This document shows positions 10,706 to 58,897 of a stretch of 64,000 nt of DNA, piece by piece (the stretch's first letter is position 1; the number at the start of each line of letters is the position of its first letter). The position numbers and the translations under genes are program-made. This DNA is from Rudanella lutea DSM 19387 (GTDB lineage: Bacteria > Bacteroidota > Bacteroidia > Cytophagales > Spirosomataceae): assembly GCF_000383955.1 (NCBI RefSeq), contig NZ_KB913013.1, forward strand, positions 3,429,694 through 3,493,693, read 5' to 3'. The notes under the pieces were generated by a model. That model was given only the letters and a program-made list of their open reading frames with translations, did no database searches and was not told the origin of the DNA.

Positions 10706-10787
10706 AAGGAGAATGGATAAAGGAGGAAAGGGAGAAGGAAGACCGCGACAGCCCCCTTCTCCCTTTCCTCCTTTATCCATTCCCCTT
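10706..10787. terminator. Purine-first hairpin between convergent genes (2)
   Basis: Arms of 33 bp (10706-10738 and 10755-10787) differ at one position and enclose a 16-base loop. The left arm contains AAAGGAGGAAAGGGAGAAGG. It fills the gap between the LuxE-like gene and the convergent sigma-54 regulator, ending two bases from the regulator stop codon. Likely a bidirectional terminator. Confidence 0.8.
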
Positions 10788-22191: not shown

Positions 22192-22206
22192 TGTATTGAG
22201 TGAATG

Positions 22207-22292
22207 AGTGAATGAGCGAATTAGTGAATGATAACAGGCAAGCGGGTGTGCTTAAGACTTCATTCGCTCATTCACTAATTCGCTCATTCACT
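22207..22292. repeat. Hairpin with arms of tandem short words, murE-mraY gap
   Basis: A perfect 25-bp inverted repeat (22207-22231 and 22268-22292) has arms made of repeated words such as GTGAATGAG and GCGAATTAGTGAATGA. The words continue outside the perfect arms on both sides. It lies between murE and mraY on the minus strand, where a strong hairpin could attenuate mraY transcription. There is no T run. Confidence 0.7.
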
Positions 22293-22304
22293 AATTAAAC
22301 AAAG

Positions 22305-37065: not shown

Positions 37066-37107
37066 TGGGTCCAGAAAGGCAGAGCTTTAATTAACTACGC
37101 TAAAACC

Positions 37108-37141
37108 AAAGATGTCATCCCTGAAACAAGATGACATCTTT
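37108..37141. terminator. Palindromic hairpin between psd and the OmpA gene
   Basis: AAAGATGTCATC and GATGACATCTTT enclose a ten-base loop (CCTGAAACAA). It lies after psd on the minus strand and probably terminates it. The core resembles the hairpin at 47520-47590 (see findings). Confidence 0.8.
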
Positions 37142-37176
37142 AAAAACGAAATAAAAGACATTTTTCGTGCCAACGT

Positions 37177-40037: not shown

Positions 40038-40042
40038 AGAAC

Positions 40043-40120
40043 CCAAAAGCAAACGGGAGGAAAGAAAAAAGGAGAAAGCGTAAGCCATCTCCCTTCTTCT
40101 TTCCTCCCGTTTGCTTTTGG
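40043..40120. terminator. Purine-first hairpin between convergent genes (3)
   Basis: Arms of about 34 bp (40043-40076 and 40087-40120) have three mismatches. The left arm reads CCAAAAGCAAACGGGAGGAA onwards. It fills the gap between the TraR gene and the convergent TonB-dependent receptor, ending one base from the receptor stop codon. Confidence 0.8.
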
Positions 40121-40121
40121 C

Positions 40122-42503
40122 TTAAAACCGAACCCGAACCCCTACCAGCGCGTTCCGACCCGCTTGCGGAAAAAAGGCATTGTCGGCCTGAACCCGTCCT
40201 TCTGAGACATACGCATACGTGTACCCGTTCGACTCGTACAGCTCGTTAAACACGTTGTTGAGTAGCAGCGTGAGGCTCACCTCTTCGGCAAAACGGGGTT
40301 TCCAGACGTAAGCCAGCCGGATATCATTCACAAAGTACGGATCCAGCCGACGGGCTTCATTCGAGGTGTTGTCGAGGTATTGCTTGCCGACATACTTCGA
40401 CAGCAACGATACGTCGAACCCTTTCAGCAGCGTGTACGTCAGTTGGGAGCCCCCGATCACGTTGGGCGAGAACGAGATGTCTGTTTGGCTGTATTGACGG
40501 ACATCCTGCTTACCGGTATCAAAGTTGTCGAGGTACTCGGTAAACTGCCGGATCTTGTTGCGGCTAAACGTAGTATTGACGTTCCATTGCAGAGCTTTGG
40601 CCAACCGCAGGCCGGCCTCCAGCTCAATACCAGCCCGGTAGCTGCGGTCGACATTGACGCGGTTGTAAGCGCCCACGTCGTTGATCCGGCCCGAAAGCAC
40701 CAGCTGATCGCGGTAGTTCATGTAGTACGCATTGGCAGTGAAAGCGAGCCGGTTTTGCCGCAGCTTGTAGCCAGCCTCCCAGTCGTAGAGCCGTTCAGCC
40801 CGGGGGCGGCTCGTGGGCGACGATTGTGTGAAATCGTCACGGTTGGGCTCTTTGTTGCCTACCGCAAACGACGCATACAGGGTGCTGCGGTCATTTAGTT
40901 CATAAGTCAGGCCGGCTTTGGGGTTGAAAAACGAAAGCTGCGCGGTTTGCTGTACATTGTTCAGGTTGTTGTCGAAGCCCAGAAACGAGTAGTCGACGGT
41001 ACGCACCTGTAAATCGGCAAATGTGGTCAACTGAGTCGTGACCCGGTAGTAAGCCTTTGCGTACAGGTTGAAGTCGTTCTTGGTCGCATCGTTGTCGTAA
41101 TATCGCTGCCGAATGTTGCTTGTGCCTGCAAACCGGGCCCAGATCACCTCACCAAAGTGCTTGCCTTTATACTGATTCCAGCCCCCGCCGATGTTGGCCG
41201 TCAGCCGTCCGAAGCCGGTGTAGTCGAGGGAGAAAATACCGCCATAAAAGTCATTGTCGAGCCACCGGCGCCGGATCAGATCCGAGCGGCTGATGACCGA
41301 GTCGCGAATGGTTACGTTCGGAATTCCGTACCGGCTCAGGCGGTCGTTTTCGCGAAACTGCTCGTAATAGCCCCGGCCTTTGGTGTAAAACGCCGACGCA
41401 TTGAGCCGCCAGTTTCGGCTTAGCTCGTGCGACGAAATAAGCTGATACTGATCCTGCTGGTAGTTATCGGTCTCGTTATCGTACGTGAGTGAGTTGAACG
41501 TCCGATTGGTGGCGAGCAGGTTTTCAGGAACCCCGTTCCAGGCCTGATAGGTTTGCTCGCGGCCTGAGAATACGTTGAGCCGCACGTAGCTTTTCTTGCC
41601 GTAATACCCGCCCGACACATAAAACGATTTGAGGTCGGAGAAGGCCCGGTCGATGAATCCGTCGGACTTGATTGCCGACAGCCGGGCGTCGACTACCCAG
41701 TGATTGTTGAGAAGCCCTGTACCGGCCATCACGGTAGCTTTACGGGTGTTGAACGATCCTCCCGAGAGGTTTACCTCGCCGTATGGGTCTCGCTGCAGAG
41801 CGTTGGTTTGCACGTTGAGCGTTGCCCCGAAAGCCCCGGCCCCGTTGGTGCTCGTGCCTACCCCACGCTGAATCTGCACGCTGCTCACCGATGAGGCAAA
41901 ATCGGGCATATTGACCCAAAACGTCCCCTGCGACTCGGCATCGTTGTACGGAATCCCGTTGAGAGTCACGTTGACGCGGGTAGCATCGGACCCGCGAATC
42001 CGAATGCCCGTGTAACCCACACCTGCCCCGGCATCGGAAGTGGTGACCACCGAGGGCGTAAAGTTGAGCAGAATAGGCAAATCCTGTCCGAGGTTCAGTT
42101 TGCGTAGCTCAGGTGCTGTAACGGTTGAGTACGCAATGGCCGACTTGTCGTTGGCGCGGGTGGCACTGACCACTACTTCGTCGACCACGACCTCGGTTCT
42201 GACGAGCGTAACGTCGAGTTGTGTATTGCCCCCAACGGTTACCGAGCGGGTTTGGGGTTCGTAACCCAGCAGCGAAATCCGGATGGTGTAGGAGCCGGGG
42301 GCTAGATTAGTGAGCCGGTAGCGGCCTTCGGCATCGGCGGTGGTGCCCCGGAAGGAGCCTTCCAGCATGATGGCCGCGCCGGGTAGCGGGCTTTCCGAAT
42401 CGCGGATTTGGCCCGACAGCACAGCCGTTTGGGCCATAGCGGCCAAACTAAACAACCACAGCACAATACTGTGGGCAAGTCGATAGGTTGTCTTTTTTTT
42501 CAT
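40122..42503 (-). CDS. TonB-dependent receptor under TPP riboswitch control, probably thiamine uptake
   Basis: Outer-membrane receptor of 793 residues. Signal peptide ending at AAMAQ, then a carboxypeptidase-regulatory-like domain (LSGQIRDSESPLPGAAIML, residues 29-105), a plug domain (IRIRGSDATRVNVTLNGIP and QRGVGTSTNGAGAFGATL) and a beta-barrel with C-terminal Phe. The leader carries a thiamine pyrophosphate riboswitch (42600-42683), so the natural substrate is probably thiamine or a precursor. No inner-membrane transporter or thi gene is adjacent. Stop codon abuts the hairpin at 40043-40120. Confidence 0.92.
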   Translation of the reverse strand: MKKKTTYRLAHSIVLWLFSLAAMAQTAVLSGQIRDSESPLPGAAIMLEGSFRGTTADAEGRYRLTNLAPGSYTIRISLLGYEPQTRSVTVGGNTQLDVTLVRTEVVVDEVVVSATRANDKSAIAYSTVTAPELRKLNLGQDLPILLNFTPSVVTTSDAGAGVGYTGIRIRGSDATRVNVTLNGIPYNDAESQGTFWVNMPDFASSVSSVQIQRGVGTSTNGAGAFGATLNVQTNALQRDPYGEVNLSGGSFNTRKATVMAGTGLLNNHWVVDARLSAIKSDGFIDRAFSDLKSFYVSGGYYGKKSYVRLNVFSGREQTYQAWNGVPENLLATNRTFNSLTYDNETDNYQQDQYQLISSHELSRNWRLNASAFYTKGRGYYEQFRENDRLSRYGIPNVTIRDSVISRSDLIRRRWLDNDFYGGIFSLDYTGFGRLTANIGGGWNQYKGKHFGEVIWARFAGTSNIRQRYYDNDATKNDFNLYAKAYYRVTTQLTTFADLQVRTVDYSFLGFDNNLNNVQQTAQLSFFNPKAGLTYELNDRSTLYASFAVGNKEPNRDDFTQSSPTSRPRAERLYDWEAGYKLRQNRLAFTANAYYMNYRDQLVLSGRINDVGAYNRVNVDRSYRAGIELEAGLRLAKALQWNVNTTFSRNKIRQFTEYLDNFDTGKQDVRQYSQTDISFSPNVIGGSQLTYTLLKGFDVSLLSKYVGKQYLDNTSNEARRLDPYFVNDIRLAYVWKPRFAEEVSLTLLLNNVFNELYESNGYTYAYVSEGRVQADNAFFPQAGRNALVGVRVRF

Positions 42504-45936: not shown

Positions 45937-46070
45937 GCTGACGCGAGGGCCTTCGACAGGCTCAGGCTGACATCGGTTTGAGAGCCGCCCGTTAGCCTGA
46001 GCCTGTCGAAGGCCCTTGTCGTTCGGCGCATTGGTCGGCAACTATTTTTGAAGCAAATACTTGCGATGCT
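45937..46070. repeat. REP-like palindromic repeat, copy 2
   Basis: Same element as at 1800-1927. Left arm GCTGACGCGAGGGCCTTCGA onwards (45937-45971), right arm 45991-46020. Similarity resumes right of the hairpin with GGCAACTATTT and TTGCGATGC. Like the first copy it follows a plus-strand stop codon. Confidence 0.75.
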
Positions 46071-46109: not shown

Positions 46110-47471
46110 TCACTCCGCCAGCAATACCTCCTGCGCGGCTCGCTCGCCGGAGCGTACGGCCCCGTCCATATAGCCATTCCAGACTTCGGCAGTTTCGGTG
46201 CCAGCCCAGTGAATCCGGCCGACGGGTTCACGCAAAGCCGTGCCGTATTGGGTCCAGACGCCCGGTCCAAACAAACCGGCATAACAGCCCCGGCTCCAGG
46301 CTTCATCCACAAAGCTGTGATCAAGGTAACGCGTAGGCCTGTCAGCCGCGGGCCCAAACAAGGTGGTAAATGACGCCAGTGCCGATGCCTGCCGCTCGGC
46401 CTCACTCAGTTGCCCAAACGCCCGCGCCTGATTCCCCAGCACGAAACCCATCAGAATGCCCCGGCCACCATCGGCTGGTGAATTGTCGAACGTGACGGTT
46501 ACGTGCCCCTCAGGTGTGGCCGCGAGCCCATTCAGTCCCTGATCGCGCCAGAAAGGGCGCTCGTAGAACGCATAGCATTTCCAGACGACGCCCATCGGTA
46601 CGTTTTGCTGAAGTTGTACCCGTTTAGGGGGCAGAGCGGGCGTAAACTGAATTTCATTGGCCAGTATAGGCGGAATAGCCACAATGACCCGCCGGGCTGT
46701 ATAGTCAAAATCGGGGCCACTGACCCGGACTCCCTGTTCGGTTTGCTCAATCTGATGCACCGGCGCATTCAGGCGAATATGCCCATGCAGCTCGGCGGCC
46801 ATTTGGTCGGCTATCCGTTGAGAGCCGCCCACAAACCGTTCTTCCTGCGCGCCATTTTTTACGTTCATCAGCGTGTCCAGGTCCCGGCCCGACTTGATGT
46901 AGAACAACGTGTGCAGCATTGAAATATCGGCCGGGTCGGCGGCCCAAATCGCTTCGGCGGCAATTTTGAGGAACTGTCGGGCGGTTCTGTAACCCACGTG
47001 TTGCTGCATCCAGTCGGCTAGGGTGATAGCGTCGAGCTGTTGGGCGTTGGGCGAGGCCCACGGCTGTTTCAGATCAATGGTCCTTGCCAGTTTGTTCAGT
47101 TTTTTGATGTGCCAGTCGAGGCTCAGTAACGACAGCAGGGGGAGGGGTGGTATGAGGCCTTTGTAGCGTTTTACTTTGCCCCGGAATAGCTGCGTGCTTT
47201 TGCCGTCGTTGTAGGTTGGGTAGGTTTCAACGCCATACTCCCGGGCCAGCGCGTACATCCGGTCCTGCGTAGGGCCAACCCAGGCCGCCCCCAGATCAAC
47301 GTACGAACCGTCGTCGAAATGGCGTGTCCAGACCCGGCCACCGATTCGGTCGCGGGCTTCGAGAACCAGCACGCTTTTGCCCGCCCGGTGTAGGTTACGG
47401 GCGGCTGTCAGGCCGGCATAACCAGCCCCTACAACAATGACATCATGGGTGGTTGGGTGTTCGGTAGGCAT
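46110..47471 (-). CDS. Flavin monoamine oxidase family protein
   Basis: FAD-dependent amine oxidase of 453 residues. Dinucleotide-binding motif VIVVGAGYAGLTAARNL at residues 11-27, EARDRIGGRVWT near 40, YVDLGAAWVGPTQ, and the C-terminal FAD contact WAGTETAEVWNGYMDGAVRS GERAA-type region. The segment SRGCYAGLFGPG aligns with the region holding the covalent FAD cysteine of mammalian MAO, but covalent binding is not certain. No signal peptide. Substrate unknown. It is downstream of a small membrane protein across a long hairpin. Confidence 0.9.
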   Translation of the reverse strand: MPTEHPTTHDVIVVGAGYAGLTAARNLHRAGKSVLVLEARDRIGGRVWTRHFDDGSYVDLGAAWVGPTQDRMYALAREYGVETYPTYNDGKSTQLFRGKVKRYKGLIPPLPLLSLLSLDWHIKKLNKLARTIDLKQPWASPNAQQLDAITLADWMQQHVGYRTARQFLKIAAEAIWAADPADISMLHTLFYIKSGRDLDTLMNVKNGAQEERFVGGSQRIADQMAAELHGHIRLNAPVHQIEQTEQGVRVSGPDFDYTARRVIVAIPPILANEIQFTPALPPKRVQLQQNVPMGVVWKCYAFYERPFWRDQGLNGLAATPEGHVTVTFDNSPADGGRGILMGFVLGNQARAFGQLSEAERQASALASFTTLFGPAADRPTRYLDHSFVDEAWSRGCYAGLFGPGVWTQYGTALREPVGRIHWAGTETAEVWNGYMDGAVRSGERAAQEVLLAE

Positions 47472-47519
47472 TTATTTGGGTGGTTTAGGGCTTGTAAGAT
47501 AGGTCTTTAAATAAAGAAA

Positions 47520-47590
47520 GGGCTTTGTGAAGTGTGTAGAGATGTCATCTTTTCAAACAAAATGACATCTCTACACACTTCACAAAGCCC
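47520..47590. terminator. Long 29-bp-stem hairpin
   Basis: Perfect 29-bp arms (47520-47548 and 47562-47590) reading GGGCTTTGTGAAGTGTGTAG onwards surround a 13-base loop CTTTTCAAACAAA. It lies after the small membrane gene and before the amine oxidase on the minus strand, probably as a terminator. Part of the core recurs at 37108 and in hisF. Confidence 0.8.
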
Positions 47591-47614
47591 TCGATGCTGA
47601 AACCGGCCTAACGA

Positions 47615-47950
47615 TTAGTTTATGATCGCGTCGATAGCCCAGGTGACAATCGACACCACAATACTAAACAGCAAAGCGGCAAAGAAACCACTGACGGCAA
47701 AGCCGTCGACGATAGATGCTGCCAGATACACCATGATGACGTTAATGACGAGGTAGAACAAACCCAGCGTCAGAATGGTGATTGGGATAGTGAGCAGTAC
47801 CAGAATTGGTTTCAGAAACGCGTTGAGCAAGCCCAGCACGATAGCCACGATGATAGCGGCTCCGAAACCGTCGACTCGGATACCCGGAATGAACTGACTG
47901 GCGATAAACACCGCCACAGCGCTGATCAGAATGCGAATGATGAGTCCCAT
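47615..47950 (-). CDS. Four-helix membrane protein (phage holin 4 / YvlD family)
   Basis: Hydrophobic protein of 111 residues with four transmembrane segments (about 5-20, 27-55, 58-80 and 86-106). The pattern FIPGIRVDGFGAAIIVAIVLGLLNAFLKPIL and LTLGLFYLVINVIMVYLAASI is that of the family PF04020 (mycobacterial 4 TMS phage holin, YvlD). Despite the name there is no phage context. The cellular role is unknown, possibly envelope stress. It lies downstream of hisIE on the same strand. Confidence 0.85.
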   Translation of the reverse strand: MGLIIRILISAVAVFIASQFIPGIRVDGFGAAIIVAIVLGLLNAFLKPILVLLTIPITILTLGLFYLVINVIMVYLAASIVDGFAVSGFFAALLFSIVVSIVTWAIDAIIN

Positions 47951-48054: not shown

Positions 48055-48660
48055 CTATTTTCCGGCGTGACGGCCCTGTAAAATCGTGATGACTTCGTCG
48101 AGGTCGATGTTTTTCTGCTCGAGCAACACCAGAAAATGGAACAGCAAATCGGCGGCTTCGCCCCGGAATAGGTCGTCGTTGTTGTCTTTGGCTTCGATTA
48201 CCAGCTCAACGGCCTCTTCGCCAACCTTTTGCGCAATTTTGTTGACCCCCCGGTTGAATAACGACGTGGTGTACGATTTTTCGGTGGGATTCACGCGCCG
48301 GTCGTGGATAATGCCTTGCAGGTAGTTCAGGAACTGCCCTTTTCCCCGGTTTACCTCCTCAAAACAGGTATCGGCACCGGTATGGCAGGTAGGGCCGGCG
48401 GGCGATGCCTTAATCAGCAGGGTGTCGCCGTCGCAGTCGATCAGGATCTGCCGAACGTGCAAAAAGTTATTGGAGGTTTCGCCCTTGGTCCAGAGCCTAC
48501 CTTTGCTCCGGCTGAAAAACGTAACCACACCCTCGGCCTGAGTTTTGTCGTAGGCTTCCCGGTTCATGTAGCCCACCATGAGCACCTTACCGGTTTGTTC
48601 GTCCTGCACCACGGCGGGCACAAGGCCGTCGGGCGATTTGCTAAAATCAATTGTTGTCAT
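48055..48660 (-). CDS. hisIE: Bifunctional phosphoribosyl-AMP cyclohydrolase / phosphoribosyl-ATP pyrophosphatase
   Basis: Steps two and three of histidine synthesis in one 201-residue chain. The HisI domain has GLVPAVVQDEQTGKVLMVGY, FFSRSKGRLWTKGETSNN and the metal-site CDGDTLLIKASPAGPTCHTG. The HisE domain (from about residue 110) has GVNKIAQKVGEEAVELVIEA and GEAADLLFHFLVLL. It is the last of four his genes on this strand, after hisF with a 24-bp gap. Confidence 0.95.
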   Translation of the reverse strand: MTTIDFSKSPDGLVPAVVQDEQTGKVLMVGYMNREAYDKTQAEGVVTFFSRSKGRLWTKGETSNNFLHVRQILIDCDGDTLLIKASPAGPTCHTGADTCFEEVNRGKGQFLNYLQGIIHDRRVNPTEKSYTTSLFNRGVNKIAQKVGEEAVELVIEAKDNNDDLFRGEAADLLFHFLVLLEQKNIDLDEVITILQGRHAGK

Positions 48661-48684
48661 ACAATTCGTTTGCTTGAGAAACGC

Positions 48685-49485
48685 CTAATTAGTCAGGCGC
48701 ATCGGAATACCTTGTTGGGCCAAATACTGCTTAAGCTCAGGAATATCGATCTCTTTGAAGTGAAAAATGCTGGCTGCCAGCCCGGCATCGGCTTTGCCAG
48801 TGGTAAACACATCCACAAAGTGATCCATGGTGCCCGCGCCCCCCGACGCAATCACCGGTATATGAGCCGCCCCCGACACGGCTGCCGTCAGTTCGAGAGC
48901 AAAGCCTGCCTTGGTACCATCGGTGTCCATTGAGGTGAGCAGAATTTCGCCCGCCCCCCGATTTTCTACTTCTTTAGCCCATTCGAGCGTGCGCAAATGA
49001 GTGGGTTTGCGGCCGCCATGCGTGTGCACGATGTGTTGTCCCGGCGCTGACATTTCGTTTGAAGAAATGTCAGCGCCGGCGGGAATCCAGCGGGTGTCGA
49101 TGGCCACCACAATACACTGGCTACCAAATTCGAGCGCGAGCTGATCGACCAGGGCGGGGTTACGCACGGCCGAGGAGTTGATCGAAACCTTGTCGGCACC
49201 GGCGTTGAGCAGCGCCGATACGTCGGCCACCGACGAGATTCCTCCGCCTACAGTAAACGGAATATTGACCGCGTGGGCCACCCGCCGGACGAGTTCAATC
49301 AGGGTTTTGCGCTCGTCGACGGTGGCGGTAATATCCAGAAAAACAAGCTCATCGGCCCCTTGTCGTGCGTAAATAGCCCCCAGTTCTACGGGGTCGCCAG
49401 CATCGCGCAGGTTCACGAAGTTCGTTCCTTTTACGGTGCGCCCGTCTTTGATATCGAGACAGGGAATAATTCGTTTTGTTAGCAT
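48685..49485 (-). CDS. hisF: Imidazole glycerol phosphate synthase subunit HisF with palindromic insertion
   Basis: Cyclase subunit of IGP synthase; with HisH it makes imidazole glycerol phosphate and AICAR. The TIM-barrel signature is intact: catalytic Asp11 (CLDIKDG), Asp130 (VVAID), [31 protein letters not shown] and [13 protein letters not shown]. The protein has 266 residues instead of about 253. The surplus is residues 136-148 ([13 protein letters not shown]), and their DNA is exactly the 39-bp perfect hairpin at 49041-49079. The start overlaps the stop of the GNAT gene by one base (TAATG). Confidence 0.95.
49041..49079. repeat. 39-bp palindromic element inserted in-frame in hisF
   Basis: Sixteen-bp perfect arms (CCGGCGCTGACATTTC and its complement) around the seven-base loop GTTTGAA. 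Thirty-nine bases are thirteen codons, so the frame is kept. The encoded segment has no counterpart in other HisF proteins known to me and follows catalytic Asp130 by five residues. Confidence 0.85.
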
Positions 49486-49910
49486 TAGTAGCTGGTAAAT
49501 AATTTGCGGTGCATGTACCAGTGGGGCTCTTCGGGGTTGACGAAGCCAAACTGACGGTAGAGCCCCTGCGCATCTTGCGTGACCAGAATCCACCGGCGCA
49601 GCCCCTGCAATTCGGGGTATTCGGTGATGTACTGAACCAGTTTTTTGGAAAGGCCCCGGCCCCGATTGCTCTCAACCACGAACACATCGGACAGGTACGC
49701 TACCGTAGTATAGTCAGTTACGACGCGGGCAAACCCAACCTGTTGTCCATCGGGGGCGTAGACCCCAAAACAAAGCGAGTGCGCAACGGCTTTCTCGACT
49801 TTTTCGAGCGGGATGTTCTGCGCCCAGTACGACTCCTGACTCAGAAACCCGTGAATCACGTTCAGGTCGAGCCGGGATTTGTCGGTGCTGATGGTGTAAT
49901 TTTCGGTCAT
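49485..49910 (-). CDS. GNAT-family N-acetyltransferase
   Basis: Acetyltransferase of 141 residues with the GNAT acetyl-CoA loop [18 protein letters not shown] and the preceding strand YLSDVFV; the C-terminal part ([18 protein letters not shown]) is typical. The ATG at 49910 overlaps the stop of the gene before it (ATGA), and its own stop overlaps the hisF start by one base. It therefore belongs to the his transcription unit by position, though histidine synthesis has no known acetyltransfer step. Substrate unknown. Confidence 0.88.
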
Positions 49911-51403: not shown

Positions 51404-51997
51404 TTAAAGCGAAAGATTCAAAAAGTTTTCGAGCACGCGCTGCCCTACGTTGCCACTAATTTCGGCGTGAAATTGAGCCGCGTAGAAGTTGTCTTTCTGG
51501 AGCATAGCGCTGAACGGACGCCCGTACTCGCACACGGCCACGGTCTCGGGGCAAACGTCGGCCGCGTAGCTGTGTACGAAATACATGTAGGCATCGGCGG
51601 GAAGCCCTTCGGTGAGCGGCCCGCGTAGTTGATTGATGTTATTCCAGCCCATATGCGGTACTTTGAGGCCACCATCGGCCGGCAGCCGGCGCACATCAAT
51701 ATCAAAAATGCCCATGCAGGTCGTGTTGTTCTCTTCGGAGTGACGACACATGAGTTGCATGCCGATACAGGTACCCAGCACGGGTTGTTTCAGCGATGGA
51801 ATCAGGCGATCGAGGCCGCGCTCGCGCAGGTACGCCATAGCGGTACTGGCTTCGCCTACGCCGGGAAAAATGACTTTGTCGGCCGACCGGATTTCGGTCT
51901 CATCGTCGGTCAGGAGGTAGCTCGCACCGATGCGGTCGAGGGCGTACATTACCGACTGAACGTTGCCTGCATTGTATTTGATAATGACGGTTTTCAT
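51404..51997 (-). CDS. hisH: Imidazole glycerol phosphate synthase subunit HisH
   Basis: Glutaminase subunit that feeds ammonia to HisF. Class I amidotransferase of 197 residues: VIIKYNAGNVQSV at the start, VIFPGVGEASTAM, the nucleophile in VLGTCIGMQLM, GWNNI, and the His/Glu pair in QFHAEISG. The ATG at 51997 is the true start; the longer frame gives the prefix MPVGLSAQRSTASLY, which is encoded by the flanking palindromic repeat. Three bases separate the start codon from that repeat, so the native promoter has been displaced. Confidence 0.94.
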   Translation of the reverse strand: MKTVIIKYNAGNVQSVMYALDRIGASYLLTDDETEIRSADKVIFPGVGEASTAMAYLRERGLDRLIPSLKQPVLGTCIGMQLMCRHSEENNTTCMGIFDIDVRRLPADGGLKVPHMGWNNINQLRGPLTEGLPADAYMYFVHSYAADVCPETVAVCEYGRPFSAMLQKDNFYAAQFHAEISGNVGQRVLENFLNLSL

Positions 51998-52000
51998 AAA

Positions 52001-52116
52001 GTACAGTGAAGCGGTGCTTCGCTGGGCCGATAGGCCAACAGGCATCGCTTGCTCAAGCGTTTGTTAGTGGTTCAAAAGTTGGCCTATCGGCCCAGAGGAG
52101 CGGTGCTCCGCTGCAC
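52001..52116. repeat. Palindromic repeat flanking RAYT, hisH side
   Basis: Begins GTACAGTGAAGCGGTGCTTC; its first 67 bases match 52755-52821 with two differences. The inner part folds back (CGATAGGCCAAC with GTTGGCCTATCG). The right end (GGAGCGGTGCTCCGCTGCAC) has diverged. It starts three bases upstream of the hisH start codon. Confidence 0.85.
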
Positions 52117-52124
52117 GGGTTGCG

Positions 52125-52751
52125 TCATAAGTACGCTTCGTTAACATACGTGTGTGGCCAATCTTGCCAATTTTCCACCAATTTTGCTTTGACGGGATTC
52201 TCCAAAACATATCGGATAATGTTTTCTAACTCAGCGCTATCTCGCACTACATGGTCGTAACTCTCTTGGTGCCAGAAGCTGCCCGTATGGCCAAGCAGTT
52301 TATTTGTATGACGTCCTGTATGGCTTTTGAACGATTGTAAAACCCTAAATAAAGGCCGGTCTTGCTTACCCTTATTTCGGGTATCAATGACGATATGGAT
52401 ATGATTCGACATAATGGTGTAAGCAATGAGGTCATACTGTTCTTGTTCTCTGAAATGCAGTGCTTCTTTCACTATGTTGGCAATTTCAGGCTTTGATAGC
52501 CAATAAGGGCCGTTCTGCGGATGGTCGAGGTGATGCTCAAAGTGAGCAAAGTAACGCTTTCGGTTGTCGGCTTTAAGTTGGTTCAATTGCTTTTCATCGA
52601 TTATGCTTTTCTCCAACCTTTTTTGATCCAACTCATAACGTTCCTGTATCATCGCTACTATGGCAGTAGGTATGCTCCCTGATAACCTCATGGTAATGAA
52701 GAAGACCGCTTCGGTTGGCTGGATATGAGGCAAATTTCGATGATAATGCAT
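52125..52751 (-). CDS. REP-associated tyrosine transposase (RAYT, Y1_Tnp family)
   Basis: Single-strand DNA transposase of the IS200/IS605-like Y1 family, RAYT branch. The 208-residue protein shows the metal-binding histidine motif SNHIHIVID, the conserved FKSHTGRHTNKLLG, and FWHQESYDHVVRD, where the Tyr is the expected nucleophile, then IIRYVLENPVKAKLVE. It appears intact. The start MHYHRN at 52751 is chosen: a longer frame reads into the repeat. Its usual substrates are REP hairpins such as those at either side. Confidence 0.92.
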   Translation of the reverse strand: MHYHRNLPHIQPTEAVFFITMRLSGSIPTAIVAMIQERYELDQKRLEKSIIDEKQLNQLKADNRKRYFAHFEHHLDHPQNGPYWLSKPEIANIVKEALHFREQEQYDLIAYTIMSNHIHIVIDTRNKGKQDRPLFRVLQSFKSHTGRHTNKLLGHTGSFWHQESYDHVVRDSAELENIIRYVLENPVKAKLVENWQDWPHTYVNEAYL

Positions 52752-52754
52752 ATT

Positions 52755-52870
52755 GTACAGTGAAGCGGTGCTTCGCTGAGCCGATAGGCCAACAGGCATC
52801 GCTTACTCAAGCGTTTGTTAGGCGTTTATTCATTGGCCTTGCGGCCCAGCGGAGCATCGCTCCACTGTAC
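52755..52870. repeat. Palindromic repeat flanking RAYT, distal copy
   Basis: Ends are inverted repeats (GTACAGTGAAGCGGTGC at the left, GCTCCACTGTAC at the right), and the inner part folds back with CGATAGGCC and GGCC. This is the less degraded copy. It ends three bases upstream of the RAYT start codon. Confidence 0.85.
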
Positions 52871-56926: not shown

Positions 56927-57017
56927 GATGAGTGATGAGCGATGAATGATGAGTTTACTGACGCAAGAAAAGCATGTGTGCGTCAGCAAACTCATCATTC
57001 ATCGCTCATCACTCATC
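56927..57017. repeat. Long hairpin with tandem-word arms
   Basis: Arms of 39 bp (56927-56965 and 56979-57017) differ at one position. They consist of the repeated word GATGAGT/GATGAGC/GATGAAT, then GTTTACTGACGCA, around a 13-base loop. The hairpin lies seven bases after the DUF349 stop codon and ends eight bases before the next start codon; both genes run the same way, so it may end the first transcript or mask the second start. Confidence 0.8.
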
Positions 57018-58812: not shown

Positions 58813-58830
58813 AGAAGGCGGAGGAAGGAG

Positions 58831-58897
58831 GAAAGGAAAATGGAGGAAGGGAGAACGGCACACTTGCGACCCTTCTCCCTTCCTCCATTTTCCTTTC
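58831..58897. terminator. Purine-first hairpin between convergent genes (4)
   Basis: Perfect 25-bp arms (58831-58855 and 58873-58897) reading GAAAGGAAAATGGAGGAAGG onwards, and further imperfect pairing outside. It fills the 92-bp gap between the CoA-transferase gene and lpdA. Confidence 0.82.

Follow-up and report, generated by a model that had tools for sequence, protein, structure and literature searches.

A dispersed hairpin repeat carried in frame within hisF of Rudanella lutea

The window considered here is a stretch of 64,000 nucleotides from the genome of Rudanella lutea DSM 19387 (contig NZ_KB913013.1). Its minus strand carries hisF (48685..49485), an open reading frame with TIGR00735 and PF00977 matches that encodes the 266-residue cyclase subunit of imidazole glycerol phosphate synthase. 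Both features by which a HisF protein was recognised are found in it: a profile search yields 362.2 bits against TIGR00735, exceeding the curated cut-off of 294.55, and Asp11 and Asp130 are both present in the translation, leaving the catalytic residues unharmed, as the original prediction had stated. The closest named HisF is that of Fibrella rubiginis (88%), in agreement with a placement in the Cytophagales. A RAYT-like Y1 transposase gene is located between the his genes (52125-52799, minus strand); it scores 76.3 bits against REP_Tyr_transpos, for which the cut-off is 80, and lies above the cut-off of PF01797. Near-identical segments of ~70 bp (near 51990-52065 and 52750-52830) precede the RAYT-like and the hisH-like ORFs, which have the extra start MPVGLSAQRSTASLY in common.

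The hisF gene harbors a hairpin at 49041..49079 (minus strand), detected by an inverted-repeat search and by the covariance model R1 (see below). Its two arms (49041-49056 and 49064-49079) are 16 nt long each and 100% complementary. They enclose a loop of 7 nt (49057..49063, minus strand) that reads GTTTGAA on the plus strand and TTCAAAC on the coding strand. This is the only inverted repeat of at least 12 nt reported within 48600-49500, and it bears out the palindrome that had been read from the letters. The length of 13 codons proposed for it also stands, but its alignment with codons 136 to 148 does not: the first letter of the palindrome is base 2 of codon 136 and its last is base 1 of codon 149, so that it touches codons 136-149. 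Since the core and loop of the dispersed repeat amount to 35 nt, which is not a multiple of three, the flanks must have undergone adjustment to fit the frame. Folding of the mRNA, which had been proposed as a check, is predicted at -33.7 kcal/mol for a stretch of 79 nt (z = -5.5), a value that none of 200 shuffles equalled. Furthermore, none of 200 codon shuffles of the HisF loop segment gave a perfect arm of such length. An Rfam search of 48600-49600 returned six matches at E<=10, every one of them far under its gathering score.

In the AlphaFold model of HisF (mean pLDDT 87.8), the insert lies between strands 125-134 and 150-155, and the blocks covering it have a mean pLDDT of 78 (131-140) and 62 (141-150). 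According to this model, the insert is the turn of a β-hairpin following Asp130, which agrees with the exposed loop after Asp130 proposed for it originally. The solved HisF proteins for which alignments were shown (HisF-LUCA and a 2wjz chain) have a gap at the insert site.

A search of the genome for the arm sequence, suggested at the outset, reveals that the arm and loop sequence recurs at about 76 places. The consensus core of this repeat is AGAGATGACATCTC-TCCAAAC-GAGATGTCATCTCT, with core arms of 14 bp and a loop of 7 nt. A core pattern built from copies other than that of hisF, allowing up to 3 mismatches, matches the genome 44 times in forward and 44 times in reverse orientation, while the reversed control has no match in either. 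The same pattern yields 36, 6, and 2 forward matches in three congeners, one of which (G159) is represented by a genome just 71% complete. The hisF copy shows 2 differences from the pattern of an intergenic copy (C1:5531473), for a chance expectation of 0.01 matches in the window. The covariance model R1 was derived from five copies, including that of hisF. On both strands of the genome, it gives at least 131 matches at E<=1 (150 of 778 first-look candidates scored), from which 76 distinct places were kept after removal of opposite-strand duplicates and of a few weak or overlapping matches. The arms covary among copies, CTC/GAG alternating with CTT/AAG, and GAC/GTC with GTC/GAC. Most copies are apparently located outside genes, and some form pairs 50-110 bp apart, often oppositely oriented. 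The window holds a second copy (47519..47591, plus strand; inverted-repeat search and R1), with its core at 47536-47574 and arms of 33 nt at 97%, which sits between two ORFs of the minus strand, 46110-47471 and 47615-47950. A weak, degraded copy is found at 37106..37143 (plus strand; R1, 23.4 bits, E 8e-5).

Across 222 genomes of the family, R1 finds matches at E<=1e-4 in at least 17 (best 30 candidates per genome), and, among the matches listed, those above 45 bits are confined to the genus. Loci from other genera have a 3-nt loop in 12 of the 17 measured. The repeat thus appears, as far as the sequences scanned go, to be abundant solely in this genus. Lone near-consensus copies, such as a hairpin of genus g33 (G216, locus L230) with 22-bp arms, one mismatch, and a 7-nt loop near the consensus, indicate however that the family is not strictly limited to it. 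In G114, a species of genus g10, a palindrome with perfect 48-bp arms, a related-looking core, and a 3-nt loop is observed (L234, 1470-1570). The pattern GACATTTC..GAAATGTC matches 12 of the 222 genomes, including the present one and that of the sister species G157, and by eye the other ten have different loops.

The hisF sequences of relatives show the gap of 39 bp that a precise insertion would leave. Compared with the 798 nt found here, seven of 11 other sequences measure 759 nt, namely those of congener G158, three g10 species, G115, Larkinella knui, and Fibrella rubiginis, the last having a loop and distances identical to those of G114. The G157 gene is as long as the present one, and those of G159, G181, and G048 are off by other amounts. 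Among 89 HisF loops parsed in the family, the stretch separating the conserved motifs is 8 residues long in 36 and longer in 53, versus 21 residues here; this set combines the 30 best matches with 60 proteins partly picked for length (59 parsed, G191 being the exception), and its length distribution is biased. An ancestral loop had been expected if most related HisF proteins carried the same extra segment, and the short loops, together with the mostly different sequences of the longer ones, do not bear this out.

Two congeners, G157 (WIPASDDTASNEMSSPRQ) and G159 (WVSRDNISLNEMSSQ), possess the segment at the same site and in the same frame of hisF, although their palindromes are imperfect, while G158 has no insert. 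The G159 gene holds an almost consensus copy of the repeat, and its loop amounts to the short form plus 10 residues, not plus 13. In G157, 10 of 16 stem positions pair (our own count from the alignment), indicating that a perfect stem is not maintained in all species. Two arm positions of the present genome differ from the state common to G157 and G159, as the alignment of the three is read, and at each of them both arms are altered, A to C being matched by T to G, and C to T by G to A. These paired changes complete the perfect stem and, in comparison with G157, replace residues 138 and 147 of the protein. Loop orientation is identical in the three species, so the clearest sign of template switching is absent in hisF itself. 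The HisF proteins of the present genome and of G157 differ at 7 residues, 6 of which fall within 134-149, versus 84 synonymous codon differences outside this segment. This points to purifying selection on HisF, with an insert almost free to vary. In the hisF tree, G158, devoid of the insert, groups weakly with G159, which carries it (70-78% support; a genus tree from hisF only is weak). With this grouping, one insertion requires a later loss; otherwise, two insertions are needed.

Two of the about 76 copies are clearly in frame within genes, those of hisF and of a glycosyltransferase 2 gene (C1:598592-599767; PF00535, E 2.1e-23), the latter copy being WTDDISFGEMSSVQ. This glycosyltransferase has 32 residues between two motifs versus 13-17 in eight parsed relatives (G158, G159, and six others), the comparison using the 10 of 30 loci parsed by motif. 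Its G157 orthologue has 31 residues, carries an inverted loop, and reads DDISPNERSS, showing that inversion of the hairpin loop has altered a protein. A third copy (C1:2995289; L204, around 2482) is a candidate. It lies in a gene for a 506-residue membrane-type protein that displays the repeat pieces EMSSLD, EMTSLQT, and EMSSLN in one loop, and for which a Pfam search gave no match. Placement within genes was judged by open frames and a codon score. By this rough test, six of the 76 copies are in open frames of at least 100 residues with a score of about 0.1 or more: these three, plus 2926388, 4086130, and 5539399 at frame edges. The frame-edge copies were excluded from the in-gene count, as was 3357035, upstream of a likely start. 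From the look of their translations, we take the gene at 3357035 to be NeuA-like, and that at 2926388 is presumably hemE-like.

The hairpins of this genome and of G157 differ in a characteristic way, the copies evolving in concert and unusually rapidly. In 37 orthologous hairpins matched by their flanks, the loop is inverted in 15 and the same in 22, one of the 15 (76749) being ambiguous, as it reads as same or inverted depending on the hairpin with which it is paired, and two pairs (1220672 and 3282028) being poorly matched. The second copy of the window (47519-47591) is inverted in G157 with nearly unchanged flanks. These 37 pairs cover 37 of the 76 copies, and the G157 stretches were selected for R1 or pattern matches, hence sites empty in G157 are under-represented. 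An earlier table of 35 pairs, 16 of them inverted, was replaced because at least 3 hairpins had been paired with a neighbouring copy; hairpin 599088, inverted in that earlier pairing, is outside the 37. Of the 518 pairs of arm positions, 37 show a change on one side; another 17 have changed on both sides and still pair, and 3 have changed on both and do not. By our own estimate, 0.95 compensatory pairs are expected if the two sides are independent (Poisson P(>=17) about 4e-16). Arm lengths peak at 14, and in 26 of the 76 copies the arms reach 18-35 bp and extend into the flank. At C1:4086191, the left flank is equal in both species, and the right flank is its reverse complement here but not in G157. 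A similar growth of the arms is seen by eye at C1:142356, 2074042, and 4532205, and even the extended, site-specific arm of C1:4103006 has one position altered on both sides. Arm extension seems to occur in the neighbouring genus g10 too.

These changes fit template switching during replication. Passages of two papers, on yeast coding genes (PMC8604942) and on rRNA genes (PMC8794818), describe such switching at inverted repeats, and arm homogenisation, inversion of the loop or spacer, stem extension, and amino acid replacements within genes are common to these descriptions and to the present family. The published events described there lie at scattered, unrelated sites, such as the 10 spacer inversions found in coding sequences of yeast (PMC8604942), whereas a single repeat family is concerned here, with a difference in loop orientation in 15 of 37 orthologous pairs.

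Taken together, the hisF palindrome is very probably a copy of the dispersed, genus-typical hairpin repeat that was inserted in the β-hairpin turn after Asp130 and later modified by template switching. The original reading of a palindromic element inserted in frame into hisF is supported. The repeat would have entered the gene at the codons for the turn following this catalytic residue, measuring 39 nt with its flanks. As its frame is used without a stop (core peptide DDIS-xN-EMSS), the repeat adds 13 surface residues while the enzyme stays under purifying selection. It may have arrived by copying of the repeat, possibly with a Y1/RAYT-type transposase acting in trans. Template switching during replication would then rewrite the inserted hairpins, one arm acting as template for the other. 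This process would keep the arms complementary, flip the loops, and extend the arms into the flanks; the perfect hisF stem and the two paired arm changes since the split from G157 are consistent with it.

A bolder and decidedly more tentative proposal is that the β5-α5 turn of HisF constitutes a standing landing site for diverse short palindromic repeats in this Cytophagales family, where "living hairpins", continually perfected, inverted, and extended by template switching, would reversibly switch in-frame copies between two peptides. These would be FGE and PNE in the glycosyltransferase; in HisF, SSNE would become SFEE after a flip. Such hairpins, if real, would form a built-in generator of surface-loop variants.

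Concerning the spread of the repeat, it might be REP/REPIN-like and owe its mobility to a RAYT-type Y1 transposase encoded in the same genome, an idea that overlaps the insertion of a dispersed repeat proposed above and that we consider possible but rather doubtful. The family shares with the REPs of the GTAG and CGTC types, as passages of PMC3733652 present them, short stem-loops in tens of mostly intergenic copies, some intragenic, and pairs of opposite orientation, the latter looking REPIN-like here. The genome also has four Y1_Tnp genes, and the distance from hisF to one of these is 2.6 kb. However, R1 finds no match in the 13,284 bases searched around these four loci, whereas REPs of the GTAG type flank their RAYT gene. 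Nor is there a constant tetranucleotide tag: among the 70 copies of standard length (6 longer or shorter ones being excluded from the count), GTAG is found 5' in 4 and 3' in none, CGTC at neither end, and no positional consensus exists outside the core. Both the 14-bp stem and the 7-nt loop are longer than the range given for CGTC REPs in the same passages of PMC3733652. Without a constant tag and a repeat at the four Y1 loci, the hairpin repeat was not filed under REP, and no dedicated transposase for it was found.

It is unlikely that the hairpin is a selected RNA element, acting in ribosome pausing or in protection of the his transcript, with its pairing maintained by selection. The very stable fold and the compensatory changes across the family would suit such a role, and part of PMC3733652 considers intergenic REPs in the role of RNA elements. 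Nevertheless, G158 dispenses with the hairpin and G157 with a good part of its pairing, while loop inversions and arm extensions that copy the flank are not expected from pairing selection alone. Still far less probable is an origin in place, by which a template switch would have copied one half of a long HisF loop onto the other, without any mobile repeat. The loop does vary in length, most of the 89 parsed members are devoid of long palindromes, and template switching is able to create palindromes, according to passages of PMC8794818 and PMC8604942; yet the match of core and loop to about 76 dispersed copies and the near-consensus copy in the G159 gene make this origin hard to hold, although such a switch still stands as an account of how the stem was perfected later. 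Finally, an ancestral long loop that serves its own function, for instance in substrate-loop dynamics or in the binding of a partner, and in which the palindrome is incidental, is highly improbable: although 53 of the 89 loops, in a set partly picked for length, exceed 8 residues, the genera mostly carry unrelated sequences and lengths, and 6 of the 7 differences to G157 fall inside the insert, where model confidence is low.

The inserted repeat of Rudanella would not be alone in occupying this turn. Turn length varies across the family, and different genera mostly have unrelated sequences and lengths there. Two foreign turn inserts, those of G154 and G162, were covered by a repeat search. The first is a palindrome with 13-bp arms that has 56 matches in the G154 genome, itself included. 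The second has 9 matches in G162, 10 in G161, 4 in G165, and 0 in G167, where the counts for G162 and G161 take in the copy within hisF; both inserts are G-rich or C-rich, and these are raw match counts with no shuffled control. Nevertheless, several matches of the G154 insert stay near-identical across 27-37 nt, and one in G161 reaches 83% over 78 nt. By sequence comparison, the G154 and G162 segments thus match dispersed repeats of those genomes, unrelated to the Rudanella repeat. By eye, the turn inserts of genera g29 and g33 resemble heptad-type repeats. Unrelated repeats may have settled in the turn of other lineages because it is tolerant to insertions.

Rickettsia palindromic elements (RPEs), to which the insert had been likened, offer a second comparison. 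The behaviour is alike, since both are palindromic, multi-copy repeats, some of them lying in frame in unrelated protein genes (here hisF and glycosyltransferase 2) and adding a peptide, but the likeness is one of behaviour only. RPEs are about 150 bp long, with nearly half of them within ORFs, as given in passages of PMC10969869, versus 35-39 nt and two clear plus one candidate of ~76 copies for the hisF repeat. Intragenic REPs are also mentioned in passages of PMC3733652, together with two Xanthomonas species that have different REPs at about the same recB site, so the phenomenon is not categorically new. A literature search outside subscription papers, which is weak evidence of absence, brought up, among the entries listed, no description of this repeat from the Cytophagales and none of a palindrome within hisF. 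As far as this search tells, the repeat family, its hisF location, the sharing of one turn by several repeats, and the extent to which loops flip seem to be new.

The hisF insert would provide a clean natural case of a biosynthetic enzyme gaining coding sequence from a dispersed palindrome, beyond the groups where such gains were found described. The use of one turn by unrelated repeats could serve to test whether insertion-tolerant sites determine the survival of repeats. Besides, the loop orientation of about 76 hairpins is a readable flag by which template-switch mutagenesis could be measured in wild genomes, and the family would permit a direct test of whether pairing is kept by selection or by mutation.

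Other inverted repeats have been observed in the window. Long, near-perfect ones are located at 56927-57017, 40040-40123, 10706-10787, 22197-22296, and 58820-58897, several of them consisting of purine runs or of heptads (GATGAGT, for example), and represent further palindromic families. Another inverted repeat is present in two copies around TTCGACAGGCTCAGGCTGAC, at 1800-1889 and 45946-46016.
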